64,000 bases of DNA, taken from the NCBI RefSeq assembly GCF_024609325.1, contig NZ_JANHMQ010000001.1, positions 1,364,001 through 1,428,000 on the forward strand, written 5' to 3'. Each line of letters starts with the position of its first letter. The stretch's first letter is position 1. The translations under genes and the position numbers were made by a program. Source of the stretch: Geothrix fuzhouensis. Its GTDB lineage: Bacteria; Acidobacteriota; Holophagae; Holophagales; Holophagaceae. The notes under the pieces are model-generated. The model searched no databases. It had not been told where the DNA came from and saw nothing but the letters and a program-made list of their open reading frames with translations. This document shows positions 15,901 to 27,900 of the stretch, in pieces.

Positions 15901-15997
15901 GAGCATCATCGACGCCCATCGCGGGGAGCTGAGGATTGACAGCGAACTCGGCCGGGGCGCCCGGTTCCTGGTCGAACTCCCCCTGCAGGGGGCCTGA
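12944..15997 (+). CDS. Reg_prop/Y_Y_Y sensor histidine kinase
   Basis: 1017 residues. Signal peptide (LVWLWLGLTGLLPPLAG), then about 700 residues of periplasmic beta-propeller repeats (LIEDQRGFLWVGTNTGGVARL, DRRGVLWVGSDGDGL, DARGRLWIGTMKGLHLW), a Y_Y_Y domain (about 655-725), one transmembrane helix (RILFGLALLGLLAWALWW), coiled coil, HisKA with phospho-acceptor H802 in MVTHDLRSPLTT, and HATPase_c (NLFENALKFTP, DTGRGLD, GWGLGLSICQSI). Unlike the hybrid forms common in Bacteroidetes it has no receiver or AraC domain, and no response regulator gene adjoins it. Divergent from tatD with 83 bp between starts. Confidence 0.9.
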   Translation: MRSLCPMLVWLWLGLTGLLPPLAGQQPAFRRFGLRDGLPQSQVTSLIEDQRGFLWVGTNTGGVARLGASGFRTFAGPQGLKALFIYALMESPSGSIWVGSQEGVSEIRGETVLNYGLAEGGGVFEGLALALDDQDRVLVGNRQGLFRLQDGSFSPVQLPAPWPGGPIRRLARDHAKGVWILGKGGTVARWDPQGLRMYSLSPSHPGGRVRDLQVDSRGQAWVLLDGALLRMNQGRWVNEPLAGLPRMPRMVSLRFNPRGEGFQISLGGDGVLVREPDGSTHILTAETGLPRDRIFVAMRDRRGVLWVGSDGDGLAAQALPELLTLDGSNAILGKDLAAVSGILELAPDRYMLAASTGIYLVEEGRNIIGHWTQREGLPATETWGLLPDGAGGVWVGTDRGLARWRNGRVAPAGPAAMAKAAVLTLVRDGTDILAGTDQGLFELDGQGRLLAHHRLPLETGNETVSNILRYEGRLLLATGYGLWELADGKLQRAFPDAPFANSTVTAMATDARGRLWIGTMKGLHLWRDGLWSSFGLNEGLPDEGINFIADVGRGRMAFGHNKGVTLLEGRNLHHLSRSQGLISEETNHDGFLLDSKGRLWIGMIGGVCILQGAQGFHNTPLRPPTLLDVRWPGGSQALPAVAQVPPRPEFLDFSFDTGDPLVPSQLHYQAYLQGVDEGWQPVNQGLTLQYRNLKAGHYEFQLRASSDGVTWAEAAPVSIVVSPAWYERWLVRILFGLALLGLLAWALWWRGHSLALRSRELEETIESRTLMLDRQNRALEQAHQQIKRSLESRLKLLDMVTHDLRSPLTTILLTLDRLRELVPSANLNLLDVMEREANRIETLVRNLLDQSRSEALLQSLKLVPTIPAEITEGFEDVLRLKAEAKGLAFHLEVSAEAGRTSILADAATLHQVMLNLFENALKFTPRGGQVGIRSSVDQGAGTWHLEVWDTGRGLDASKLQELLQPFRQTQAGDAARGWGLGLSICQSIIDAHRGELRIDSELGRGARFLVELPLQGA

Positions 15998-16073
15998 GTC
16001 CTCTGTGACCGAGGGCATAATCCGCCTGCGGGGCCGTACCATTCCGCGCATCCTGGGTGGACCTGGAGCTTCC

Positions 16074-17120
16074 GTGCCCTCCTCTTTTTCCATGCCCAGC
16101 AACAACCAGCCCCCCCGCATGCTACGACTGCGGGATGGCCTCAAGGATGGGCTCGGCCGGAACATCACCTACTTGCGGGTCTCAGTGACCGAGCAGTGCA
16201 ACCTGGCCTGCGTGTACTGCAAGCCGCGCACCGGGGCCCTGGAGCGAGCTGAACTTCCCGCCATGAGCCGGAACGAAGTGGTGCAGGCCGTCCAGGTCTT
16301 CACCAGCCTGGGCATTCGGAAGGTGCGGCTCACCGGCGGCGAGCCCTTGATGCGCCGCGACCTGGAGACCATCGTCGCGGGCATCAGTCCGGAGGTGGAA
16401 GGCCGCGTCCACCTCACCACCAACGGCTTCCACCTGGCCCGGCGCGCGCGCGGACTGCGCGATGCGGGTCTGTGTGGCGTAAACGTGAGCCTGGACGCCG
16501 CTGAGCGCGGCGCCTTCGAGCGCCTCACCCGCAAGGATGGGTTTTCCCGGGTGCTGGCCGGGATCGAGGCAGCCCGATCCGCCGGCCTCAAGACCAAGCT
16601 CAATGCGGTGGTGCTGCGGGGCTGGAATGAGGACCAGATCGTCCCTCTGGCGCGCCTCGCCCAGACCGAGGGCATCCAGGTCCGCTTCATCGAGTTCATG
16701 CCCTACCAAGGCAACGGCTGGGGCAAGGACCAGTTCATGCCCGCCAGCGAGATCCTGGCCACCGTCCAGGCGGGCCTTGGCGCCCCCTTGGAGGAGGAGC
16801 CCGTGGTCGGCCTGGAAGAAGGCCCCGCGCGGATCTTCCGCCTGCCCGATAGTGACGGCAAGGTGGGCGTCATCTCCACCCTCAGCGCCGACTTCTGCGA
16901 TCGCTGCAACCGCGTGCGCCTCACCAGCCGCGGCGAACTGCAGGCCTGCCTCTTCGGGAACCGGCCCGTGGATCTGCTGGAACCTCTGCGGAACCACGCT
17001 TCTCACGAGGACCTCGCCAGGCTCATCCGCCAGGCCCTCACCGAAAAGCTGGATTGCCATCCCATGCGCCGCGGTGAGAACCCCCATCTGGCAAGCGGCA
17101 TGTGGCAGGTGGGCGGGTGA
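16074..17120 (+). CDS. moaA: GTP 3',8-cyclase MoaA
   Basis: Radical SAM enzyme of the first step of molybdopterin synthesis (GTP to 3',8-cyclo-dihydro-GTP). The N-terminal cluster motif is CNLACVYC, the second cluster motif is CDRCNRVRLTSRGELQACLF, LTGGEPLMRRDL binds SAM, and the protein ends in the conserved Gly-Gly (MWQVGG). The GTG at 16074 has GGAG 5 bp upstream; ATGs at 16092 and 16119 lack a ribosome site, so the start is uncertain by 15 residues. Overlaps mobA by 4 bp. Placed upstream of a molybdoenzyme operon. Confidence 0.93.
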   Translation: MPSSFSMPSNNQPPRMLRLRDGLKDGLGRNITYLRVSVTEQCNLACVYCKPRTGALERAELPAMSRNEVVQAVQVFTSLGIRKVRLTGGEPLMRRDLETIVAGISPEVEGRVHLTTNGFHLARRARGLRDAGLCGVNVSLDAAERGAFERLTRKDGFSRVLAGIEAARSAGLKTKLNAVVLRGWNEDQIVPLARLAQTEGIQVRFIEFMPYQGNGWGKDQFMPASEILATVQAGLGAPLEEEPVVGLEEGPARIFRLPDSDGKVGVISTLSADFCDRCNRVRLTSRGELQACLFGNRPVDLLEPLRNHASHEDLARLIRQALTEKLDCHPMRRGENPHLASGMWQVGG

Positions 17121-17692
17121 CTTCCAGCACCACCGGGTTATTGCTGCTGAGCGGCGGCCAGAGCCGCAGGATGGGTGAGGCCAAGCATGCCCTGGCCCAT
17201 CCCGCTGGCGGTTCCTGGGGAGGGCGGCTCGTCCAGGTGTTCGGGACCGTGTTCCCAGGGGCGCCGGTGCAGGTGCTGGGCGATCCCTTGCCGGACCACC
17301 CGGAACTCACGGTGGTCGAGGATTCCCGCCAAGGACCCGCGCGGGCGCTCCAGACTTGGGCCGCGCAGGAGGCGCCTGCCGTCCTCCGCTGGTGGGTGGT
17401 GGCCTGCGATCAGGTACGGTGGACGCCCGTGAGCCTTGAAGCCTGGGCACGCCGCGCCCAAGTCGCTGATCCCCAGGCCCTCCGCTGGGTCGTCGCGCAG
17501 CACGCCGGCCACCTCCAGCCCTTGGGTGGCTGGCTGCCTTCGATCCTCCGCCCGCAGGTGGCCGCCTCGGCTCCATGCTCCCTCACCGCCTTGGCCGAGG
17601 CCCTGCCCCACCTCCTCCTGCCCTGCGACGGGCCCGAATGGAGGGATGTGGACACGCCCGAGGAACGGCGCGCGTTCGAAGACGAAACCTAG
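17117..17692 (+). CDS. mobA: MobA-like molybdenum cofactor guanylyltransferase
   Basis: Predicted to attach GMP to molybdopterin, giving the MGD cofactor used by DMSO-reductase family enzymes. 191 residues. The nucleotidyltransferase motif is LLLLSGGQSRRMGEAKHAL near the N-terminus, followed by VVACDQV, with the metal-binding Asp. The usual MGxxDK is shortened to MGEAK. The GTG start overlaps the moaA stop (GTGA). The stop overlaps the convergent ferredoxin gene by 4 bp. Confidence 0.8.
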   Translation: MTSSTTGLLLLSGGQSRRMGEAKHALAHPAGGSWGGRLVQVFGTVFPGAPVQVLGDPLPDHPELTVVEDSRQGPARALQTWAAQEAPAVLRWWVVACDQVRWTPVSLEAWARRAQVADPQALRWVVAQHAGHLQPLGGWLPSILRPQVAASAPCSLTALAEALPHLLLPCDGPEWRDVDTPEERRAFEDET

Positions 17693-18066
17693 CCGAGCCG
17701 CTTGCGCACCAGGCGTTCCACGGGCACGCCGCCCTTGAGGTGGCTCTCGATGATCTCGGGCACGTCCGCGGGAGTGACGTGGGCGTACCAGATGCCGTCG
17801 GGGTACACGAGCACAGCGGGTCCGATGGCGCAGAAGCCCACCGAGCCGCAGTGGATGCACTGCACCTCGCCCTCCCGGTTGCCCTTGAAGAAGAGCAGCT
17901 TCTCGTCGATCAGCTGGGCCTTGAAGGCCTCCAGCACGGCCTCCGAGCCGTTGGCGGCGCAGCTCTTTCCCGTGCAGACCAGCACCTGCCGCTTCAACGC
18001 GGGCCCCATCACGGGTGTCACCGCGGCATCCTGCTCGGGGGTGGGAAGGGGACGGGACGAATCCAT
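17689..18066 (-). CDS. Thioredoxin-like [2Fe-2S] ferredoxin
   Basis: 125 residues. QVLVCTGKSCAANGSEAV supplies two cysteines and CIHCGSVGFCAIGPAVLVYPDG the rest, the pattern of thioredoxin-fold 2Fe-2S ferredoxins (Shethna-like and the NuoE/HoxE fold). Ends with HVTPADVPEIIESHL, typical of the family. An ATG at 18066 with GAGG 6 bp upstream is preferred. A small cytosolic electron carrier; partner unknown. Divergent from the respiratory operon. Confidence 0.85.
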   Translation of the reverse strand: MDSSRPLPTPEQDAAVTPVMGPALKRQVLVCTGKSCAANGSEAVLEAFKAQLIDEKLLFFKGNREGEVQCIHCGSVGFCAIGPAVLVYPDGIWYAHVTPADVPEIIESHLKGGVPVERLVRKRLG

Positions 18067-18181
18067 GGGAGGCCTCACGAAATCACACAATAACAGCCCT
18101 TACCGAGGCCCGGCAGAACGTTACAGATCCATGCCAATTGAAGGTTTTGAATCAAATTACTTGGTGGTTATTTAATTATTA

Positions 18182-18352: not shown

Positions 18353-18673
18353 ATGCGGAACTCCCTGAAACTTTTCGCCGTGATCGCCACGCTCTCGGCT
18401 TCGCTGGCCGCGCAGGGCGGTAGCGACACCAAGGGCAAGTTCTTCTTCAAGAAGACCTGCAAGGCCTGCCACACCCCCGGCAGCGCCGCCAAGGAGATCA
18501 CCCCGCTCTCCAAGACCCAGGCGCAGTGGAAGGCCTACTTCGCCGCCGGCAAGCACAAGAAGGGCAGCGAGAAGATCGACTCAGTCATCAAGCCCGAGCA
18601 GGTCAAGGATGTGCAGACCTTCCTGGTGAACCACGCTTCCGACTCCCCGCAGCCCGAAACCTGCGGCGGCTGA
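18353..18673 (+). CDS. Small periplasmic c-type cytochrome
   Basis: 106 residues. Signal peptide MRNSLKLFAVIATLSASLAA, then one haem c motif CKACH at residues 36-40. The mature protein has no methionine, so the usual distal Met ligand is absent; His residues in AGKHKKG and VNHASD are the only alternatives. It also has a C-terminal Cys (PETCGG). The ATG at 18353 has AAAGGA 8 bp upstream. First gene before a porin and a molybdoenzyme, so a periplasmic electron-carrier role is likely. Confidence 0.85.
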   Translation: MRNSLKLFAVIATLSASLAAQGGSDTKGKFFFKKTCKACHTPGSAAKEITPLSKTQAQWKAYFAAGKHKKGSEKIDSVIKPEQVKDVQTFLVNHASDSPQPETCGG

Positions 18674-18742
18674 GCCAGCTTCACCCTTCCCCTCCAACCC
18701 CTACCCCCTACCCCTGAACCTCCCACCTCGGAGACTCACACC

Positions 18743-20422
18743 ATGAACTCCCGAATCGCGCTCACCCTCGTCGCCATGCTGGCGCCCGCGGCCCTTAGCG
18801 CCCAGTCGAACCAGGATCTGCAGAAACAGATCGAGCAGCTGAAAGTCGAGCTGAAGGCCGTTGAAGAAAAGGCCGCCGCCGCGCAGGAAGTCGATACCCG
18901 CCTGGTCAAGGTCGAGACCAAGGTCGCTGGCGACAACATCCAGTGGGGCGGTGAACTCCGCACCCGCTTCGATAGCACCCAGGAGCACTTCAAGCCCTAC
19001 AACCAGTTCATGGGGTTCATGCAGAACACCCCCAGCGCCTCCAACCCGTATCCCTTCGCGCCGATTACCCAGCCGGTGGGTGCGCAGGATTGGAGCAACT
19101 CTGTCCAGTGGTCCACCCGGCTTCGCCTGAACATGGGCATCACCATCAACGAGAACGCCAAGATCATGGGCCGGCTCGTGATGTACAAGGTCCATGGCGG
19201 GGCGGATGTGCCCACCTTCAACGGTTCGCCCAACACCATCAGCACCTCCTTCTCGGCCGGCCAGACTCCCGCCACGGACGCCCTCCTGGTGGAACGCGCC
19301 AGCCTGGTCTACCACTTCAACTCGGTCGCCAGCATCCTCTCCATCGGCCGCCAGAACACCTCCGATGGCCCGCCCTTTGAAGTCCGCGAAGGCGGCGAGC
19401 GCCAGGCCACCCCGCAGGCCCTGGCCGTGAATGCCACCATCGACGGTATCGGCTGGAAGTTCCAGCTCGATAAGCTCGGCCTCCCTGAAGGCACCCTGTT
19501 GGGCTTCTGCTACGGCGTGGGCTACGAGAGTGGCTTCGGCGGCGGCGGCAGTGTCAAGTCCAACCAGACCATCGTGGGCATGAACTTTACCAACTTCGAC
19601 GGAACGAATCCCTCCGCCATCACCCCCGTCGTGGGCAACATCGGGCACCTGAAGGACACCACGGTGCTGGGCGCCATGTTCGACATGCCCCTGCTCTTCC
19701 AGATCGGCGAGTCCGTCCAGAGCGCGAACTTCTACCTGGGCTACAACCGAATGGGCAACATGACCGACATCCCCTTCGGCAACACCATCAATTTCCCGAT
19801 TCCTGGCCAGACCCCCTCGACCCAGTACGTCACCGCCACCGCCAACCTCGGTGACATCGATCAGTACACCGCCACCTGGAAGCACAAGATCGGTGACACC
19901 TTCACCTATTTCGTGAGCGGCGGGTACCTCAAGAGCCATCCGAATGGCCAGGTCTCCCAGTACGGCGCCTATTGGAGTTTCGCCCCCGGAACCCTCACGC
20001 AGCTGTCCGGCTTCGGCGGCCTGATGGGTGATCCCACCAAGAGCGAAACCGCCACGGCCTACTACGCCGGCATGCGCTATGACCCCACCTCGACCTTCGG
20101 CGTGGGCGTGGAGTTCAACCACGGTTCCCCGCGCTGGTGGACCTACACCCCCGCCACCGGCGAGTACACCGACAAGCTCGGCGCCCGCGGCGATGTGTGG
20201 GAAGGCTACATCCACTGGAAGTTCGCCCACAACGCCGCACTCCGGATCGGCTACATCGACTACAAGTACACCACCGCGATGAGTGGCTGGCAGATCGGCC
20301 CCTCCGCGCAGCCCGGCCAGAACTGGGAGTCCGCCATGAACCTGGGCAACAACCCCGTGCTCCAGTACGCCTACCCGGCCACGGTCAAGAATTTCTACAC
20401 TTCCCTCGAAGTGCGTTTCTAG
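18743..20422 (+). CDS. Outer-membrane porin, DUF3373-like
   Basis: 559 residues. Signal peptide (IALTLVAMLAPAALSAQ), then a coiled coil (NQDLQKQIEQLKVELKAVEEK, residues 22-45) as in periplasm-facing trimer segments, then a long beta-strand region rich in aromatic and Gly residues ending in Phe (SLEVRF), the outer-membrane sorting signal. Repeated aromatic-girdle strands (WGGELRTRFDS, YFVSGGYLKS, WEGYIHWKF) support a barrel. Lies in the respiratory operon, so it may admit the electron acceptor or release product. Confidence 0.75.
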   Translation: MNSRIALTLVAMLAPAALSAQSNQDLQKQIEQLKVELKAVEEKAAAAQEVDTRLVKVETKVAGDNIQWGGELRTRFDSTQEHFKPYNQFMGFMQNTPSASNPYPFAPITQPVGAQDWSNSVQWSTRLRLNMGITINENAKIMGRLVMYKVHGGADVPTFNGSPNTISTSFSAGQTPATDALLVERASLVYHFNSVASILSIGRQNTSDGPPFEVREGGERQATPQALAVNATIDGIGWKFQLDKLGLPEGTLLGFCYGVGYESGFGGGGSVKSNQTIVGMNFTNFDGTNPSAITPVVGNIGHLKDTTVLGAMFDMPLLFQIGESVQSANFYLGYNRMGNMTDIPFGNTINFPIPGQTPSTQYVTATANLGDIDQYTATWKHKIGDTFTYFVSGGYLKSHPNGQVSQYGAYWSFAPGTLTQLSGFGGLMGDPTKSETATAYYAGMRYDPTSTFGVGVEFNHGSPRWWTYTPATGEYTDKLGARGDVWEGYIHWKFAHNAALRIGYIDYKYTTAMSGWQIGPSAQPGQNWESAMNLGNNPVLQYAYPATVKNFYTSLEVRF

Positions 20423-20435
20423 CTGCAAAAGCACT

Positions 20436-20463
20436 CGGGCCGGGGGGGCAACCCTCCGGCCCG
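20436..20463 (+). promoter_or_regulatory. Intercistronic hairpin between porin and psrA-like gene
   Basis: CGGGCCGG pairs with CCGGCCCG around a 12-nt loop, 14 bp after the porin stop. No U run follows, so it is more likely an mRNA-stability or partial-termination element that lets the porin be made in excess. Confidence 0.5.
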
Positions 20464-20502
20464 GCTCTTACAACCTTCCTCGTATCACCAAGGGAGACCA
20501 CG

Positions 20503-22689
20503 ATGGGTACGATTCGCATGGATCGCCGGCTGTTCCTGAAAAGCGCGGGCGCCACCGCCGGGGCCGTCGCCGCCACACAGGTGGGATGCCTCAAATACTT
20601 CAAGAAGGGGCGCAGCTCCGCCGCAGAAACGAAGGAGATCCCGACGACCTGCGAGTTGTGTCCGAACAAGTGCTCCGCCATTGCCGTGGTGGAGGGAGGC
20701 TTCGTCAAGAAGCTGAACCCCAATCCCGAGAACCCGAAATCCCGTGACATGCTGTGTGCCCGCGGCAACGCGGCCATCAAGCAGGTCTACGATCCGGATC
20801 GCCTCAAGCAGCCCATGATCCGCGTGGGCGCCCGGGGCGAGGGCAAGTGGAAGCCCGTAAGCTGGGACGAGGCCTTCGACTTCGCCGCCAAGAAACTTTC
20901 CGATGTGAAGGGCAAGTACGGGCCGGAAGCATCCCTCTGGTCCTCCACCGAAGGCTTCCAGGAAGTCTTCTTCAAGAACCTGGGCCTGGCCTTCGGATCG
21001 CCCAACCTCGTGCGCCATCCCACCCTGTGCCTGGCCTCGGTCAACCTGGCCTACAGCGCCACCTTCGGCACCGTGCCGAGCTTCGACCTGCTGAACAGCA
21101 AGTTCGTCATCATGTCCGGCGCAAACCGCTTCGAGAGCATCATCACGCCCGACACGATGGACCTCATCGGCGGCGTGATGGAACGCAAGGCCAAGCTGGT
21201 CTACCTCGATCCCCGCTTCACCGTCACCGCCGCCAAGGCTGACGAGTGGTACCCCATCAAGCCCGGCACTGACCTGGCCTTCATCCTTGCCATGATCCAC
21301 GTGATCATCGCGGAGAACCGCCACAGCAAGGACTTTGTCGCTGCCTACACCACCGGTTTCGACCAACTCGCCGAGCACGTGAAGCAGTACACGCCGGAGT
21401 GGGCCGAGAAGGAGACGGAGATCCCGGCCAAGGACATCACCCGCATCGCGCGCGAGTTCGCCGATGCCGGTGCCCGGGCCCTCTACTACGCCGGCCGCCG
21501 GTCCTCGTGGTACCAGAACGACTTCCAGATGCGCCGCGCCCAGGCCATCCTCAACGCGATCGTTGGCAACTGGGACCAGATGGGCGGCATGGTGCCCAAC
21601 GCCAAGCTCCCCAAGGGCGAATTCCTGTTCATGCCCTGGGACGAGCCCAAGGCGCCGCGGGTCGACGAGGTCCAGAAGGAGTTCCCCCTGGCCGCCGCCA
21701 GTGACGGCGTCTACCTGAAGCTGCGCGAGAACGTACTGAGCGGGAAGCCCTACCCCGTCAAGGCCTGGATGGTCTACAAGCAGGACCCCATGAACTCCCT
21801 GCCCGACCAGTCCAAGACCCTGAAGATGATCGAGCAGATGGACTTCATCGGCGTCATTGATGTGCAGATGAGCGACATGGCCTGGTATGCCGATGTGGTC
21901 TTCCCAGAAAGCGCCTACCTGGAGCGCACCGATCCCGTGGAGGTCATGCCGGGCATCTGGCCCGCCGTGGTCTACCGCCAGCAGGTGGTGAAGCCCATCC
22001 ACGACACGAAGCCCAACCTGGAGATCATCCAGGGGCTGGCCAAGCGCCTGGGCCTCGGCGACTACTTCGACTACACCATCGAGCAGTGGGTGGATGCGGA
22101 ATTCAAGGACCTGCCCATCCCCATGGCCGCCGAGCACATGAAGAAGCACGGCGTCTGGGCCGCCACCGGCCAGCCCAGCTACGGCAAGACCCTGACGCCC
22201 GACCACCGCTTCGTCACCAAGACCGGCAAGATCGAGATCTTCTCCGAGCGCCTGCAAGAGGCGGGCTACGACCCGCTGCCCGTCTACACGGCGCCGGTGC
22301 AACCACCCGGTGACCGCTTCCGCCTGATCCTCGGCCGCGTGGGCTACTTCACCCACGCCAACCAGTCGAACAACGTCTGGCTGCACGAGTTCATGAAGGA
22401 GAACGACCTCTGGATCAACCCCAAGCCCGCGGAACGGATGGGCATCCGGGACGGCGCCTACGTGACCGTCACCAGCAGCGTGGGCAGCGTGAAGCTCAAG
22501 GCCCGCGTCACAGAGGAAATCCGCCCGGACTGCGTATTCATGCTTCACGGCTTCGGCAAGAAATCGAAGATGCAGAGCCTAGTCTACAACGTGGGCGCCA
22601 GTGACGCGGTGATCCTCGAGACGGCCTGGGACAAGGTGTCCGGCAACGCCGCCTTCCACGAAACCTTCGTCAAAGTCGCGAACGCCTGA
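20503..22689 (+). CDS. PsrA/PhsA-like molybdopterin oxidoreductase, catalytic subunit
   Basis: 728 residues. N-terminal Tat signal with DRRLFLKSAG at residues 7-16 directs export of the folded enzyme. C50, C53, C57 and C85 bind one 4Fe-4S cluster (CELCPNKC...MLCARG). C176 in RHPTLCLAS fits the Mo-ligand cysteine of the Psr/Phs/Arr/Ttr branch rather than the Ser of DmsA. Motifs for MGD binding (KLVYLDPRFTVTAAKADEW, AWMVYKQDPMNSLPDQ) follow. Start ATG after AGGGAG. Forms an operon with the FeS and membrane subunits. Thiosulfate, polysulfide, tetrathionate and arsenate reductases share this layout; substrate not assigned. Confidence 0.9.
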   Translation: MGTIRMDRRLFLKSAGATAGAVAATQVGCLKYFKKGRSSAAETKEIPTTCELCPNKCSAIAVVEGGFVKKLNPNPENPKSRDMLCARGNAAIKQVYDPDRLKQPMIRVGARGEGKWKPVSWDEAFDFAAKKLSDVKGKYGPEASLWSSTEGFQEVFFKNLGLAFGSPNLVRHPTLCLASVNLAYSATFGTVPSFDLLNSKFVIMSGANRFESIITPDTMDLIGGVMERKAKLVYLDPRFTVTAAKADEWYPIKPGTDLAFILAMIHVIIAENRHSKDFVAAYTTGFDQLAEHVKQYTPEWAEKETEIPAKDITRIAREFADAGARALYYAGRRSSWYQNDFQMRRAQAILNAIVGNWDQMGGMVPNAKLPKGEFLFMPWDEPKAPRVDEVQKEFPLAAASDGVYLKLRENVLSGKPYPVKAWMVYKQDPMNSLPDQSKTLKMIEQMDFIGVIDVQMSDMAWYADVVFPESAYLERTDPVEVMPGIWPAVVYRQQVVKPIHDTKPNLEIIQGLAKRLGLGDYFDYTIEQWVDAEFKDLPIPMAAEHMKKHGVWAATGQPSYGKTLTPDHRFVTKTGKIEIFSERLQEAGYDPLPVYTAPVQPPGDRFRLILGRVGYFTHANQSNNVWLHEFMKENDLWINPKPAERMGIRDGAYVTVTSSVGSVKLKARVTEEIRPDCVFMLHGFGKKSKMQSLVYNVGASDAVILETAWDKVSGNAAFHETFVKVANA

Positions 22690-22700
22690 GGGGGTGAACC

Positions 22701-23252
22701 ATGGCCATGAAGAAGAAACGCTACGCCCTCGTCATCGACTCCAGGAAATGCATCAACTGCAAAGCCTGCGTCGTCGCGTGCAAGGCCGAGAACAACGTCC
22801 CCATCGGGAACTTCAGGAACCGGATCAACGAAGAGCGGAAGGGTGAGTATCCCAAGCTCAGCATCAACTTCGAACCTGAGCAGTGCCACCACTGCGCGGA
22901 GCCTTCCTGCGTGCGCGTGTGCCCCACCGGCGCCTCGTGGCAGCGCAAGGACGGCATAGTCCTCGTCAACTACGACGAATGCATCGGCTGTCGCTACTGC
23001 ATGGTCGCCTGCCCCTATGACGCCCGCTACTTCAACGAGGAGCAGGGCGTGGTGGACAAGTGCACCCTGTGCAGCCACCGCGTGGACAAGGGCGACACCC
23101 CTGCCTGCGTCGAGACTTGCCCCTCCAAGGTGCGCGTCTTCGGCGACCTGGAGGACACCTCCAGCCGGATCCACGAGCTGCTCTCCACGCGGCGATACCG
23201 CGTGAAGGAACCCCAGACGGGCAACGGCCCCCAACTCTATTACCTGCTTTAG
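22701..23252 (+). CDS. PsrB/NrfC-like 4x[4Fe-4S] electron-transfer subunit
   Basis: 183 residues with four cluster motifs: CINCKACVVAC, CHHCAEPSCVRVC, CIGCRYCMVAC and CTLCSH...CVETC. It carries electrons from the membrane subunit to the catalytic subunit. It has no signal peptide, as expected for a partner exported together with the Tat subunit. Starts 11 bp after the catalytic gene and precedes the NrfD-type gene by 9 bp. Confidence 0.93.
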   Translation: MAMKKKRYALVIDSRKCINCKACVVACKAENNVPIGNFRNRINEERKGEYPKLSINFEPEQCHHCAEPSCVRVCPTGASWQRKDGIVLVNYDECIGCRYCMVACPYDARYFNEEQGVVDKCTLCSHRVDKGDTPACVETCPSKVRVFGDLEDTSSRIHELLSTRRYRVKEPQTGNGPQLYYLL

Positions 23253-23261
23253 GAGCCAGCC

Positions 23262-24242
23262 ATGCACGAGTTCAATTGGGGCCTCCTCATCGTGATCTAC
23301 CTCTTCCTGGGCGGGCTATCCGCCGGGCTCTTCTTCGCCGCCGGTCTCGCGGACTACATGACCGTCGACGACAAACCGGTCTACGCCCGCGTGGCCCGCA
23401 TGGGGGCCTTCCTGGCGCCCTGGCCTGTGGCAATCGGTTCCGGCCTGCTCATCCTCGATCTGGGGAACTGGTACCGCTTCTACAAGCTGTTCATCCACTT
23501 CCGGTGGGAGAGTCCGATGTCCATCGGGTCCTACCTCCTCACCATCTTCACCGTGATCGCCTTCCTCTATCTCTTCGCGTGGCTCACCGCCGATGAGCGC
23601 CAGTGGCTGTTCAGCAAAGTGCCCGCCACCTGGAAGCAGGTGCACCGGCTGAATGTGGACATCTCGTCCTGGCGCGGAAAGATCGCCATGGTGGGCTTCC
23701 CCTTCTCCATCGGCGTGGGCATCTACACCGGCGTGCTGCTCGGAGCCGTCTCCGCGCGGCCCTTCTGGAACACCAACCTGGTGGCCCAGATGTTCCTGTT
23801 CTCCGCCCTTTCCAGCGGGGCCGCGGCTTTGATGTTGGCCATGGTCCTGAACAAGAAGTCCCCCGCCGAGAAGCACGAGATCAAGTTCCTGGTCACCCTG
23901 GACGTAGTGTTCATCTCGCTGGAACTGTTCATCATCCTGCCCTACCTGATCCACGGGCAGCTGTCCTCCCTCGCGGTGAAGCAGGCCCTGAGCCTCATCC
24001 TGGGCGGCCCCTACACCTTTGTCTTCTGGGGTCCCTTCCTCGTCATGGGCCTCCTGGTGCCCCTGGCCATCGAGGTCTACGAGCTCGCCCCCAACATCTT
24101 CAAAGGCCATGAGTTCCACGGCAGCCGCAATCTGGCGCTCACTGCCGCGGGCCTGGTCCTGATCGGTGGCTTCCTGCTCCGCTACATCTTCGTCTACGCC
24201 GGCCAGGTGAGCAGCTTCCACCAGATGGGGATGCTGAACTGA
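23262..24242 (+). CDS. PsrC/NrfD-like quinol-oxidising membrane subunit
   Basis: 326 residues with about eight or nine hydrophobic helices, starting FNWGLLIVIYLFLGGLSAGLF, the NrfD family opening. It would oxidise menaquinol and pass electrons to the FeS subunit. Helices of the form AQMFLFSALSSGAAALMLAM and LFIILPYLIHGQL fit PsrC. The three-subunit set is complete. Followed by a hairpin element before the chaperone gene. Confidence 0.88.
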   Translation: MHEFNWGLLIVIYLFLGGLSAGLFFAAGLADYMTVDDKPVYARVARMGAFLAPWPVAIGSGLLILDLGNWYRFYKLFIHFRWESPMSIGSYLLTIFTVIAFLYLFAWLTADERQWLFSKVPATWKQVHRLNVDISSWRGKIAMVGFPFSIGVGIYTGVLLGAVSARPFWNTNLVAQMFLFSALSSGAAALMLAMVLNKKSPAEKHEIKFLVTLDVVFISLELFIILPYLIHGQLSSLAVKQALSLILGGPYTFVFWGPFLVMGLLVPLAIEVYELAPNIFKGHEFHGSRNLALTAAGLVLIGGFLLRYIFVYAGQVSSFHQMGMLN

Positions 24243-24276
24243 TTTAGGCTCCAGGAAAAACCAACTGATCACCACC

Positions 24277-24364
24277 AAGACACCAAGCCACCAAGAACTG
24301 CATTTGCCTTTGCCTTTCTTGGTGTCTTGGTGTCTTCTCTGTACCCGCTTTGCCGGTACAGAGA
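24277..24364. repeat. Two adjacent inverted repeats of CACCAAGA type
   Basis: AAGACACCAAG-CCACCAAGAA (24277-24297) pairs at 20 of 21 positions with the inverted copy at 24316-24336 around an 18-nt loop; each arm is made of 8-bp units (CACCAAGN). A second perfect hairpin follows at once: TCTCTGTACC (24336-24345) and GGTACAGAGA (24355-24364). It lies in the 188-bp gap between the NrfD-like gene and the chaperone gene. Confidence 0.75.
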
Positions 24365-24430
24365 CAAACTGATTCATGGTGGTAAATCTTTCTACCCGCT
24401 GATTCTGCGTGTTTCAGGAGGAACCTCGAC

Positions 24431-25018
24431 ATGCCCCTCGCGCTCCAGGCGGACCTCGCCCAGATTCTTGCCGAAGCTTTCCTGGAGCCCGATGCGGACC
24501 TCAAGGAGGGGCTGCAGCAGCTGCTGGAGAGTGGCCCCAGTCCCTCCTTGGCCTCGCCCCTGGCCCGGATGGTGGAACACACCCTCTCGGCCCAGGACCA
24601 GCCCGTGGAGTACGCCCGGCTTTTCCATCACGCCAAGGACACGGACACCATTCACCTGTTCGAATCCGTCCAGGCCCGGGGCCACCACATGGCCCCCGAA
24701 GTGCTGGAGCCCCTCAAGGCCATCTACGATGAGGCCGACATCTCCATCCAGGAGGACCTGGCTGTCCCGCCCGACCACCTTGGTCTGGAACTCGCCTGCC
24801 TGAGCTACCTTCTGGGCCAGATCATCGAAGGTGACCTGGCGGAGCGAACCCGGTTGGTGGAGCTGGCCCAGCGCCTACTCCGGGAGCACCTGCGTCCCTT
24901 CGTGACGGTGGTGGCGGAGCAGCTGCCCCAAGTACCGGCGCACCCGTACTACCTGGCCGCCGGAGAACTGGCCGGCGCGCTCTTACTGGAAACGGAGAAG
25001 GCGCTGGCGGAATTTTAG
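24431..25018 (+). CDS. TorD/DmsD-family molybdoenzyme chaperone
   Basis: 195 residues, all-helical. The pattern PVEYARLFHHAKDTDTIHLFESVQARG is the TorD/NarJ-like motif region (YARLF), followed by YDEADISIQEDLAVPPDHLGLELACLSYL, matching the PxDHLxxEL signature of the TorD group. It binds the Tat signal of the catalytic subunit until the cofactor is inserted. Its place after psrABC-like genes supports this. GGAGG lies upstream of the ATG. Confidence 0.88.
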   Translation: MPLALQADLAQILAEAFLEPDADLKEGLQQLLESGPSPSLASPLARMVEHTLSAQDQPVEYARLFHHAKDTDTIHLFESVQARGHHMAPEVLEPLKAIYDEADISIQEDLAVPPDHLGLELACLSYLLGQIIEGDLAERTRLVELAQRLLREHLRPFVTVVAEQLPQVPAHPYYLAAGELAGALLLETEKALAEF

Positions 25019-25065
25019 CCAACCCCCTGCTGGACAAAGGCTTGCTTCGCACCCAGCATGGAACC

Positions 25066-26445
25066 ATGAGCGTCCCCACGACCATCCTCTTGGTGGATGA
25101 CGAGCCGGGTATCCGGCGGTCCCTGGGCGAAGCCCTCAAGGACGAGGGCTACCACGTCGTGAAGGCCGAGCGAGGCGAGCAGGCCATCGACCTGCTCCAC
25201 AACCCCGATGGCGAGGGCATCCAGCTCATGCTGCTCGATGTCTGGCTGCCGGGTCAGGACGGCCTGGAGACGTTGAAGCAGGCCAAGCAGGTGCGTCCCG
25301 ACCTGCCCGTGGTGATGATCTCCGGGCACGCGAGCATCGACACCGCGCTGCAAGCCACCAAGCTGGGCGCCTTCGACTTCCTCGAGAAACCCATCGACCT
25401 CGACCGCCTGCTGCTGGTGACGGGCAACGCCCTGCGCCAGTCGAAGCTGGAGCGGGAGAACCGCCGGCTGCATGCCGAGGTCGAGGGCGGGCGCTTCTTC
25501 CTGGCTGACAGTCCCGCCATGAAGCGGCTCATGGCCGACGTGGCCCTGGTGGCGCCCACGGAAGGCCGCGTGCTGCTCACCGGCGAGAACGGCAGCGGCA
25601 AGGAGGAGGTCGCACGCCTCATCTATGAGCAGAGCACCCGCAAGGACGCGCCCTTCGTCGAGGTGAACTGCGCGGCCATCCCCGAAGAGCTCATTGAAAG
25701 CGAGCTGTTCGGCCACCAGAAGGGCGCCTTCACCGGCGCCGTCCGCGACCAGAAGGGCAAGTTCCGCGAGGCCGACGGCGGCACGCTGTTCCTCGACGAA
25801 GTGGGCGACATGTCGCTCAAAACCCAGGCCAAGGTCCTGCGCGCCCTCCAGGAGGGCCGCGTGGAGCCCGTGGGCGGAGGCGGCGCCGTGGGCGTGGACG
25901 TGCGCGTCATCGCCGCCACCAACAAGGATCTGGCCGGCGAGATCACCAAGGGTCGGTTTCGCGAGGATCTCTACTTCCGGCTCGCGGTGGTGCCCCTGCG
26001 CATCCCCCCCCTGCGCGAACGCCCAGAAGACATCCTGCCCCTGGCGGAGGCCTTCATCAGCCGCATCGGCCGCCAGTACGGCCGCCCGCCCAAGCACCTG
26101 GGCCCCGAGGCCAAGGACACCCTGCTGCGCCACGATTGGCCCGGCAACGTGCGCGAGTTGAAGAACCTCATGGAACGGGCCGTCATCCTCGGCCGCGGCG
26201 CCGAGATCGGCCCCCGTGATCTGGGTGCCTTGGCGACGCGGCACCTGGCGGAACAGGATCCCTTCTCCTTCCCCGAGTTCCCCAGCCTCAAAGAGGCCCG
26301 CGACTGGTTCGAGGCCCAGTATCTCCAGCGCGAGATGCGCCTGCAGAACGGCAACATGACCCGCGTGGCCGAGCGCGTGGGCGTAGACCGCTCCAACCTC
26401 TACAAGCGCCTCAAGGCCCTGGGCATCGAACCCAGGGAAAGCTAG
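25066..26445 (+). CDS. Sigma-54 dependent response regulator (NtrC/NtrX type)
   Basis: 459 residues. Receiver domain 5-125 with phospho-acceptor Asp in MLLDVWLPG and the switch Lys in [11 protein letters not shown]+ domain with Walker [15 protein letters not shown], sigma-54 loop GAFTGA intact, Walker [13 protein letters not shown]-terminal Fis-type HTH ([25 protein letters not shown]). Closest by pattern to NtrX. No kinase gene adjoins; an NtrY-like kinase lies at 48797-50872. It follows the chaperone gene by 47 bp and may act on the respiratory operon, but I found no convincing sigma-54 promoter there. Confidence 0.93.
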
Positions 26446-26447
26446 AT

Positions 26448-26684
26448 GATCGCGACCCTGCCCGTCGCGAGGCAGGCTCCACCGGAGCCGGCGAAGCAAT
26501 GCCTGGCGGGGAGCGAATCACGACCGGCGGGGGCGAGCCGTGAGTGAGAAGAAGTGGTTCAAGATCTCGCGACCATGTGGGTCGCGGAGCAGGCTCCGGG
26601 GGAGCCTGCGGAGCGGGGCCCCCACAGGGAGCGAATCACGACGGTCGGAGGCGGGCCGTGAGTGACAAGAAGTGGTTCAAGATC
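26448..26684 (+). repeat. Imperfect 118-bp tandem duplication including a gene start
   Basis: Copy 1 (about 26448-26565) and copy 2 (about 26566-26684) share a GC-rich leader (GGAGCGAATCACGAC region), a ribosome site and the first nine codons of the MerR gene. GTG at 26540 and GTG at 26658 are 118 bp apart, with one mismatch over the 27 coding bases. From copy 1 a 41-codon frame runs to a TGA at 26663-26665, overlapping the real start. The 212 bp between the response regulator and MerR gene hold nothing else. Confidence 0.75.
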
Positions 26685-27059
26685 GGGGAAGCCGCCACCC
26701 TCATTGGCGTGGGCCCCAAGGATCTGCGCTACTGGGAAGACGTCATCCCCGACATCAAACCCAGGCGCAGCAAGGGCAACCTCCGCTACTACCATGTGGA
26801 CGAGCTGCCGCGCCTGAGGCGGATCAAAGCCTGGCTGGCGGAAGGCCTCACCGTGGCCGACTGTGCTGAGCTGCTGGCCCACGGCCACCTCGTCCAGCGC
26901 CTCGACTTGGGCCTCGAGGCCGATGAGCTGCCCGCCGCCCCCGCCGTGCGGGCCAAGCCCACCATCCCGAGGCTCCTCCGCACCAGCTCGGATCTGCAAC
27001 CCATCCTCAAAGCCGTGAAAGCCCTGCACGAACGGCTATCCCGGCCAGTCAAACCTTGA
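26658..27059 (+). CDS. MerR family transcriptional regulator
   Basis: 133 residues from GTG 26658, with GGAGG 6 bp upstream. N-terminal winged [58 protein letters not shown] is the MerR pattern (in the sequence [13 protein letters not shown]). The C-terminal part lacks conserved cysteines, so no metal is suggested; it resembles the small MerR proteins co-transcribed upstream of tRNA genes near ihfA/pheT. It is followed by tRNA-Pro 35 bp downstream. Confidence 0.85.
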
Positions 27060-27227: not shown

Positions 27228-27900
27228 CGAGAGGAATCGAACCTCCGAGTGGGATCGCCCGAGGCGTGCCTTGATGGCACGCCGAAGCGAGACCGGCGAA
27301 TGGCGCAGCCAGGCGCAGTTCGAATCCCGCCCCGGTGGGCCGTTCCCAAATACGGAGCACGGCCAACCTCCGAGTGGGATCGCCCGAGGCGTGCCTTGAT
27401 GGCACGCCGAAGCGAGACCGGCGACTGGCGCAGCCAGGCGCAGTTCGAATCCCGCCCCGGTGGGCCGTTCCCAAATACGGAGCACGACCCACCTCCGAGT
27501 GGGATCGCGGAGACAACGCGGGGGAGGCTCCGCCTCCCTGAGCCAATTGGCGAAGGGGAGCACCGTGCGAGGCACGGTGCGTCAGGTGGAGTGTCGGGAG
27601 GAAGACCGGCGACTGGCGCAGCCAGGCGCAGTTCGAATCCCGCCTTGGTGGGTCGGCACCAAGTACGGAGCACAGCGAACCTCAGGTCGGGGTACCCGGT
27701 TCAGCAGGCGCCACCCGGGCGCCCGCCAAACCACCCCCTTGGGCCTTCGGCCGAGTGGCACCGCCCGAGGCGTGCCTCTCCACCTGACGCACCCTCCTCA
27801 CGAGGGTTCTCCCCCTTGCTCCGCTCGCGGAAGTGGAGCCTCTGGCAAGCCGAAGCGGAACCGGCGGCGGCAGCCGTACGTGGGTCGAATCCAACTGGGG
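27228..27900 (+). repeat. Tandem 125-bp repeats with tRNA-Pro-derived pieces
   Basis: Units starting ACCTCCGAGTGGGATCGC lie at 27241, 27366 and 27491, exactly 125 bp apart. Each full unit has a hairpin GGCGTGCC-TTGAT-GGCACGCC, then TGGCGCAGCC-AGG-CGCA joined to GTTCGAATCC (27301, 27426, 27614), resembling the D-arm and T-arm of the adjacent tRNA-Pro with the anticodon arm removed. The stretch 27228-27248 is an inverted copy of the tRNA T-arm (19 of 20 bases). The third unit contains a 9-bp hairpin (27560-27580), and a decayed fourth lies at 27750-27895. No gene is supported in 27216-27917. Confidence 0.8.

Follow-up and report, generated by a model that had tools for sequence, protein, structure and literature searches.

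In a 64,000-nucleotide stretch of the genome of Geothrix fuzhouensis (contig NZ_JANHMQ010000001.1, positions 1,364,001 to 1,428,000; hereafter the window), an operon for a reductase resembling polysulfide reductase (Psr) begins with genes for a small cytochrome and an outer-membrane porin. Do these two genes belong to the reductase, and what do they contribute to it? The host, a soil bacterium of the genus Geothrix (Holophagaceae, Acidobacteriota), has a genome of 3.3 Mb. On the plus strand, and all in frame, lie the genes for a monohaem c-type cytochrome (CYT, 18353-18673), a DUF3373 porin (POR, 18743-20422), a PsrA-like catalytic subunit (20503-22689), a PsrB-like electron-transfer subunit (22701-23252), a PsrC-like membrane subunit of the NrfD family (23262-24242) and a TorD/NarJ-type chaperone (TorD, 24431-25018). 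An original prediction made from the sequence had listed these six as consecutive genes; all of them are in place, with TorD set apart from PsrC by 188 bp (24243-24430) and therefore loosely packed. The main result of our analysis is that CYT and POR form a separate pair, which is the constant part of such loci, while the reductase is the exchangeable part.

We searched 396 Acidobacteriota genomes for CYT (with a profile), DUF3373, the OTR family of octahaem cytochromes and PsrA (E ≤ 1e-80), and counted POR and a reductase as neighbours within 7 kb of CYT. The genomes are partly metagenome-assembled genomes (MAGs), contig ends cut some of the loci, kinship and repeated genomes inflate the counts, and the class of places assigned to no reductase is shaped by the E-value cut-offs. 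CYT was found at 69 places in 68 of the 396 genomes and DUF3373 as 73 pieces in 70 of them, next to 65 places for the OTR family (one two-piece gene counted once) and 69 for PsrA. CYT and POR occurred together in 66 genomes (Fisher P ~ 1e-67, uncorrected for kinship). At 36 of the 69 CYT places the pair was accompanied by PsrA, at 25 by OTR and at none by both. Three further places had CYT and POR with neither reductase: two lie at contig ends (genomes G370 and G147), and the last (G152) has a third partner described below. CYT stood without POR at five places, which are explained by contig breaks (G299, G268) and a stop codon (G384) or scored only 33-34 bits (G231 and the second place in G027). 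Counted from the porin, 40 of the 73 places were near PsrA, 30 near OTR and three near neither; conversely, 30 of the 65 OTR places and 37 of the 69 PsrA places were near POR. When 20 CYT loci lacking a known PsrA of the clade to which the window belongs (L217-L236) were inspected, OTR was found directly behind POR in 18, a Psr in one (L224), and one locus was cut.

The mutual exclusion of the two reductases applies to CYT-POR loci at the cut-offs used. POR without CYT was found in four genomes, in one of which (G323) the contig starts within POR, and the other three (G256, G331, G355) have an OTR-like gene of 146-171 bits. Two of the three corresponding loci (L298 and L299), which fall outside the rule, carry Psr-type genes and the OTR-like cytochrome in the same cluster; in L299 PsrA is split across two reading frames. 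With 538 and 557 bits, the two OTR proteins scanned from Geothrix exceed the cut-off of TIGR04315 (375 bits), and five from other families reached 275-303 bits; since these remain under the cut-off, they are relatives and not certified members of the family. The third partner, at L302 (705-2774, genome G152), is an apparently membrane-anchored cytochrome of 689 amino acids with eight CxxCH motifs; it scores 35 bits against OTR, has a cytochrome b561 behind it and is possibly a third reductase type. These counts, with the pair next to Psr at 36 places and next to an octahaem reductase of unrelated type at 25, led us to reject the view that cytochrome and porin had been added to a Psr complex. 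The other idea considered, an electron branch in the periplasm that belongs to Psr alone, is unlikely because the pair accompanies the octahaem reductase too.

The exchange is most directly visible within Geothrix. The operon of the window is preceded by moaA (15993-17120, plus strand, start codon not fixed; NCBIfam 318 bits, cut-off 284), a gene for a MobA-like nucleotidyltransferase (17102-17692, plus strand, assigned by sequence match) and fdx for a [2Fe-2S] thioredoxin-like ferredoxin (17689-18090, minus strand, Pfam and NCBIfam matches), and it is followed by genes for a sigma-54 response regulator (25042-26445, plus strand, Pfam match) and a MerR-type regulator (26544-27059, plus strand, sequence match); moaA is also supported by synteny. 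As the original prediction stated, moaA and mobA are found just upstream, but fdx on the opposite strand sits between mobA and CYT. In locus L219 the order moaA, mobA, fdx, CYT, POR is the same, and OTR and cytochrome b561 take the place of PsrABC and TorD before the sigma-54 regulator (92% identity) and the MerR regulator (73%). Two more OTR-type loci (L268, L269) have fdx on one side and the sigma-54 regulator (92-93%) on the other, and L220 has a kinase gene, mobA, the sigma-54 regulator (89%) and the MerR gene, so that the regulator, found in four OTR-type loci, shows 89-93% identity in each of them. Among 47 Geothrix genomes, 42 have CYT, which is beside PsrA in 29, beside OTR in ten, beside both in none and undecided through a contig end in three (G017, G299, G417). 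Eleven Geothrix genomes own both reductases, and none of their 12 OTR genes is near CYT; on inspection, OTR and cytochrome b were found without CYT in 11 of these 12 loci and OTR alone in the twelfth (L261). In the genome of the window itself, no OTR was found at E ≤ 1e-20. On a tree of concatenated CYT and POR sequences (77 distinct rows, namely 51 Psr, 23 OTR and three undecided; quick method, some long branches) the partner label changes nine times, and at least eight changes are forced by starred branches; within the Holophagaceae (44 rows, careful tree) at least four switches are forced. These data show that a molybdenum enzyme and an octahaem enzyme have been exchanged at one Geothrix locus behind CYT-POR, and that the pair has switched partners repeatedly. 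The locus swap, like the phylum counts, rules out the pair as a mere Psr add-on.

On the side of the molybdenum enzyme, gene content follows the PsrA clade. Among the named homologues fetched, PsrA of G. oryzisoli SG189 and of G. campi SG10 is the closest (97% identity; the host's own records may be omitted). In a tree of 115 rows (quick method, paralogues chosen by hidden Markov model as outgroup, rows of six Geothrix loci left out), the window PsrA lies within a clade of 37 rows with a Shimodaira-Hasegawa-like approximate likelihood ratio test (SH-aLRT) support of 95. Its sister group comprises 11 proteins of Campylobacterota and Geobacteraceae (joint branch SH-aLRT 100), and none of these 11 has the pair beside psrA. 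The root of this tree is unsure because the outgroup does not form one side of a branch; several branches are long. In the 36 phylum loci with about 50% identity or more (L045-L080), CYT was found in 34, POR in 35 and PsrA and PsrB in all 36; in the 35 named clade loci (L105-L138 and L141, many from the same genomes), CYT was found in 33 and POR in 34, counting L127, where only the 5' part of POR is present, on the opposite strand and cut by the contig end. All loci in which a member of the pair was missed (L051, L074, L107, L136) are truncated at contig ends. The contig of L078 ends within PsrB and those of L116, L135 and L138 before it. Wherever the contig is long enough, members of the clade have CYT, POR, PsrA and PsrB together, an arrangement that is therefore not due to chance. 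The conservation is weaker for the remaining genes: no PsrC follows PsrB in L075 and L077 although the contigs continue, and tblastn found no TorD beside the operon in L068, L069, L073 and L075-L080. Order varies while content stays, with POR-CYT-PsrA in L124, L126, L128 and L141, CYT-PsrABC-POR in L125 and L129, and POR divergent from CYT in L127. Outside the clade, the pair is present in none of 45 named loci (four weak CYT-like matches of 18-33 bits); the 24 more distantly related phylum loci (L081-L104) include one that has it, L089. In family f10, L089 and L224 both have the pair beside a Psr from outside the clade; that of L089 groups with Thermus-type rows, and that of L224 shares 40% identity with the query and contains a stop.

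Judged by the parts seen in its sequence, the enzyme belongs to the Psr/Phs family, and its clade adjoins the Campylobacterota enzymes. PsrA (728 amino acids) has an RR leader for twin-arginine translocation (Tat), cysteines for a [4Fe-4S] cluster (C50/C53/C57/C85) and the Pfam domains Molybdopterin (151 bits), Molydop_binding and Molybdop_Fe4S4. Its C176 aligns with the Cys of the SLC stretch in Thermus Psr, the position which we take to be the molybdenum ligand. PsrB has Fer4 matches (Fer4_11, 99 bits) and four Cys motifs for [4Fe-4S] clusters, as expected of the relay subunit in the Psr/Phs family, and PsrC and TorD match NrfD (183 bits) and Nitrate_red_del (55 bits). The best NCBIfam model for PsrA is PhsA with 614 bits, below the cut-off of 694, and the scores against the models of ArrA (197 bits, cut-off 1600), TtrA (93 bits, cut-off 1750) and the DmsA type (292 bits) are far below their cut-offs. 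PhsABC proper, known from Salmonella and from E. coli plasmids, shares the catalytic family, but PhsA is only about 33-35% identical to the window PsrA, and a cytochrome b subunit is annotated next to the plasmid phsA genes, whereas the anchor in the window is of the NrfD type; the window system thus lacks both marks of PhsABC. Rhodanese-like genes, a mark of SrrA in the part of PMC8528874 available, were absent from the neighbours scanned with Pfam, which cover part of the neighbourhood. The top PDB match is PsrA of Thermus thermophilus (2vpw, deposited as thiosulfate reductase; 447 bits over the 721 residues 6-726). The Thermus PsrABC is alike in the FeS and NrfD-type subunits beside the catalytic subunit; it differs in its tree position, a separate clade of 28 rows (SH-aLRT 100), and in the active-site stretch, and CYT and POR are a feature of the window operon. 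Salmonella and E. coli PhsA are placed outside both clades. A PsrA inside a PhsA or ArrA clade, with relatives devoid of cytochrome and porin, would have contradicted the original prediction and was not found; the proposed stable tie of a PsrABC-like complex to both genes is borne out by the scores and by the relatives.

The stretch around the active-site Cys (codon at 21028-21030) reads RHPTLCLAS in the window, PSVSLCTAPRE in Thermus Psr and QCRGPR in five more distant acidobacterial Psr proteins, and this difference is possibly a sign of a different substrate preference. In a script count, a Cys about 21 residues past the RR of the Tat leader (20503-20600 in the window) was present in 35 of 45 catalytic subunits linked to CYT or POR, compared with three of 65 unlinked ones. 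It is reminiscent of a lipoprotein site, yet a canonical lipobox is lacking.

POR matches DUF3373 (PF11853) with 196 bits (cut-off 26.1). Its AlphaFold2 model, calculated from 25 alignment rows, has a mean predicted local distance difference test (pLDDT) score of 72 and a predicted template modelling (pTM) score of 0.71, and consists of a coiled coil (residues 23-64) followed by a beta barrel. The best PDB matches listed by Foldseek were the major outer-membrane protein MOMP of C. jejuni (8.3e-17) and porins of the OmpF/OmpC type. Re-alignment with the solute porins among the matches listed gave Z values of 20-22.7 with root-mean-square deviations of 2.9-4.3 over 263-311 residues; chitoporin ranked first, nearly tied with three anion-specific porins, OprO (21.8), Omp32 (21.5) and the phosphate porin OprP (21.4). 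No MtrB-type barrel was among the 50 fold matches listed, and the number of strands in the model is unsure. The model shows a porin-type fold that resembles solute porins, which fits the earlier hint at an acceptor that has to pass through the outer membrane. Eight of the 15 barrel arginines are invariant, compared with 51 invariant residues among 495 positions (P = 2.7e-5), and modelled strands hold six of these eight. The invariant arginines suggest an anion path.

CYT is a small exported protein with a single CxxCH (CKACH) and a conserved C-terminal tail, HASDSPQPETCGG. It resembles class I cytochromes c in its CxxCH and in its match to Cytochrom_C (PF00034, 25.4 bits, cut-off 21.3), and scores 25.5 bits against PF13442, under the cut-off of 27; the distal Met ligand is absent. 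The description as a Met-less cytochrome holds for the window protein, whose initiator Met is its sole Met so that the mature form is Met-free, but it can be generalized only in part, as 34 of 71 distinct relatives have no Met after CxxCH. Among the residues invariant in 31 aligned sequences are, besides CxxCH, P51, T55, W59, H94, D97, S98, P101, T103, C104 and G105. Of 79 distinct sequences bearing CxxCH, 78 have a Cys behind the DS motif, L269 being the exception, and seven lack the tail His. H94 was therefore discarded as a haem ligand, as was the His of GKHxKG, which is missing from more distant relatives. A fold search with the CYT model gave no match at E ≤ 0.001. Eight relatives lack CxxCH, of which five retain the tail Cys and three do not. 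We read the tail as a part that may bind POR or the substrate, with its Cys linked mostly to the haem form.

Haemless forms were seen in several settings. L282 and L283 are loci of Campylobacterota genomes in which the haemless relative has the tail HAADSDHPTVAGM, and the porin of L283 reaches 269 bits to PF11853. Pelovirga and a Geobacteraceae MAG encode a haemless CYT-like protein (L139 9008-9433, L140 9026-9406, L285, L286). In L139 and L140 its tail is HASDSDDPMNQ[RK]PESCG, with additional cysteines, and its gene stands ahead of a TorD-like gene and psrA; these two loci have no DUF3373 match, and a downstream gene in L140 looks rhodanese-like by eye.

How could one pair serve two unrelated enzymes? 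The reading we prefer, and consider somewhat probable, is that a sulfur oxyanion or polysulfide enters through POR and is handled by CYT, and that either reductase respires it with electrons from quinol. POR would be an outer-membrane solute porin that passes small anions inward by means of its invariant arginines. CYT, periplasmic and beside POR, might pass on or sense the entering compound via its haem and the conserved C-terminal Cys. In the window, PsrC would draw electrons from the quinol pool and PsrB would relay them to the Tat-exported molybdenum subunit PsrA, which may reduce tetrathionate, thiosulfate or polysulfide. In relatives, the reductase unit at the same locus is replaced by the octahaem OTR-family cytochrome and cytochrome b561, through which OTR probably receives its electrons from quinol. 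The common substrate of the Psr and OTR families would be a sulfur compound of middle oxidation state, and OTR-like and Psr genes in one locus would fit two steps, from tetrathionate to thiosulfate and on to sulfide. The Otr gene of an acidobacterial MAG was up 36-fold with tetrathionate at day 8, according to the part of PMC8528874 available. We infer the anion selectivity, the shared sulfur substrate, the direction of electron flow and all of the CYT chemistry. A wider version of this proposal, which we put forward tentatively and regard as rather doubtful, is that CYT-POR represents a new outer-membrane acquisition unit, in which an Arg-lined anion porin and a Cys-bearing monohaem partner capture sulfur oxyanions or polysulfide and are fitted to unrelated reductases (molybdenum Psr, octahaem OTR and at least one further eight-haem cytochrome) exchanged repeatedly at one locus.

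Several points weigh against the preferred reading. The template modelling scores of POR in Foldseek are low (0.32-0.39 by query), porins of differing selectivity tie in the re-alignment, and the barrel is slightly acidic, with 35 acidic and 30 basic residues, so that the case for anion selectivity comes down to the invariant arginines; arginine is often conserved for reasons other than anion passage. Two reductases at one genomic position need not act on one substrate, and in vitro the reactions of OTR enzymes extend to nitrite and hydroxylamine. With a third partner in L302, it may be that the pair is generic. The haemless relatives of L282 and L283, two of the eight, directly adjoin a DUF3373-like porin, and the haem is therefore perhaps not essential to the core task of the pair. 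The AlphaFold2 model of CYT (pTM 0.49, tail pLDDT 47) was unusable for the haem ligands.

Other explanations make do with less, or with a different role for the pair. An ordinary Psr operon next to an unlinked general porin, with CYT and POR kept as neighbours by ancestry and without a role in the reaction, would agree with the many PsrA relatives that have neither gene, including the 45 named loci outside the clade. It is the least probable of the explanations considered here, as the CYT-POR-Psr content is kept across families and gene orders, the pair is joined to a different Psr in family f10, and 70 of the 73 DUF3373 places in the phylum adjoin Psr or OTR. We also judge it improbable that CYT-POR works as a minimal conduit for electrons across the outer membrane, akin to Cyc2 but split over two genes, with iron, humics or sulfur outside the cell as electron source or sink. 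A monohaem cytochrome and a porin that are nearly always paired recall Cyc2, a monohaem-porin fusion (parts of PMC10734462 and PMC6344600), and Geothrix fermentans respires Fe(III) (part of PMC6018796). One haem is unable to span the membrane, however, unless it sits inside the pore; POR aligns with solute porins, haemless CYT partners occur, and the reductases behind the pair are periplasmic types. After the fold searches with POR, in which solute porins were among the matches listed, a conduit is not our first choice.

Two further alternatives concern the cytochrome. CYT could shuttle electrons between a quinol oxidase of the inner membrane and the reductase, with POR only feeding the substrate. 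OTR requires an electron donor, and the pair precedes OTR in 18 of the 20 loci mentioned above. No carrier is missing, however, because NrfD for Psr and cytochrome b561 for OTR in the Geothrix loci are already encoded, and in 11 of the 12 loci inspected where the genome has both reductases, OTR and cytochrome b stand together and CYT is absent; we rate this possibility as low as the conduit. Less improbable, but still unlikely, is that CYT, with a His/Cys-ligated haem or a thiol, picks up sulfane sulfur on its tail Cys and delivers it, as a haem counterpart of the Sud and SoxY carriers. Sulfur cytochromes such as SoxA, TsdA and DsrJ typically carry His/Cys haems, and the near-universal Cys after the DS motif would agree with this role, as would the lack of the tail His in seven of these sequences and of Met after CxxCH in 34 of 71. 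Against it stand the five of eight haemless sequences that retain the Cys and the haem-bearing L269 without it.

As a system, the window operon is a variant in which the Psr complex comes with a dedicated pair of monohaem cytochrome and porin, a pair that serves OTR as well; Otr (TIGR04315), an unrelated haem enzyme, is the alternative partner in the same slot behind CYT-POR. A described relative is the psrABC cluster of the MAG AM4 of Ca. Polarisedimenticola svalbardensis (PMC8528874, seen in part). Our locus L134 is from AM4 and probably contains this cluster; its PsrA is 50% identical, and CYT and POR lie upstream. The part of that source available describes PsrABC alone, and its main text has no match for the word 'porin'. 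A porin partnered with a c-type cytochrome is also known from Cyc2 and from the Mtr and Pcc systems. Cyc2, however, is one fused protein, as far as the available parts of PMC10734462 and PMC6344600 show, whereas CYT and POR are separate genes, and Mtr and Pcc use multihaem cytochromes in the portions of the literature available, whereas the only cytochrome of the window operon has one CxxCH. Porins beside sulfurtransferase genes have been proposed to admit polysulfide (parts of PMC12142623 and PMC6896113), which is the same idea of a porin for a sulfur acceptor; the neighbours there are different, and the available parts mention neither a CYT partner nor an exchange of reductases. A description of the DUF3373-monohaem pair or of the exchange between Psr and OTR was not found in the literature searched, which did not cover subscription papers.

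Respiratory operons are usually named for their enzyme, and here the uptake pair is constant and the enzyme replaceable. Because of this, the locus offers a natural experiment on what two unrelated reductases share. Two questions become testable in cultured bacteria, for example Geothrix fermentans DSM 14018 (L106) or G. oryzisoli (L105): which substrate this uncharacterised Psr clade uses, and what DUF3373 porins do. If true, our reading would extend respiration in Geothrix, a genus known mainly for reducing iron, to sulfur compounds.

A pattern search found no sigma-54 promoter between fdx and CYT, and no relatives were found on viral contigs. The 188-bp gap between PsrC and TorD contains an exact inverted repeat of 15 bp (24273-24287 and 24318-24332) and a second repeat of 13 bp (24336-24364). 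In L045, L046 and L048 torD follows about 11 bp after psrC, and because of this close spacing in relatives the gap looks like an inserted palindromic element. Downstream of the MerR gene, at 27240-27508, lies a tandem array with a unit of 125 bp, 2.2 copies and 97% matches, where the long overlapping open reading frames on both strands are probably not genes.

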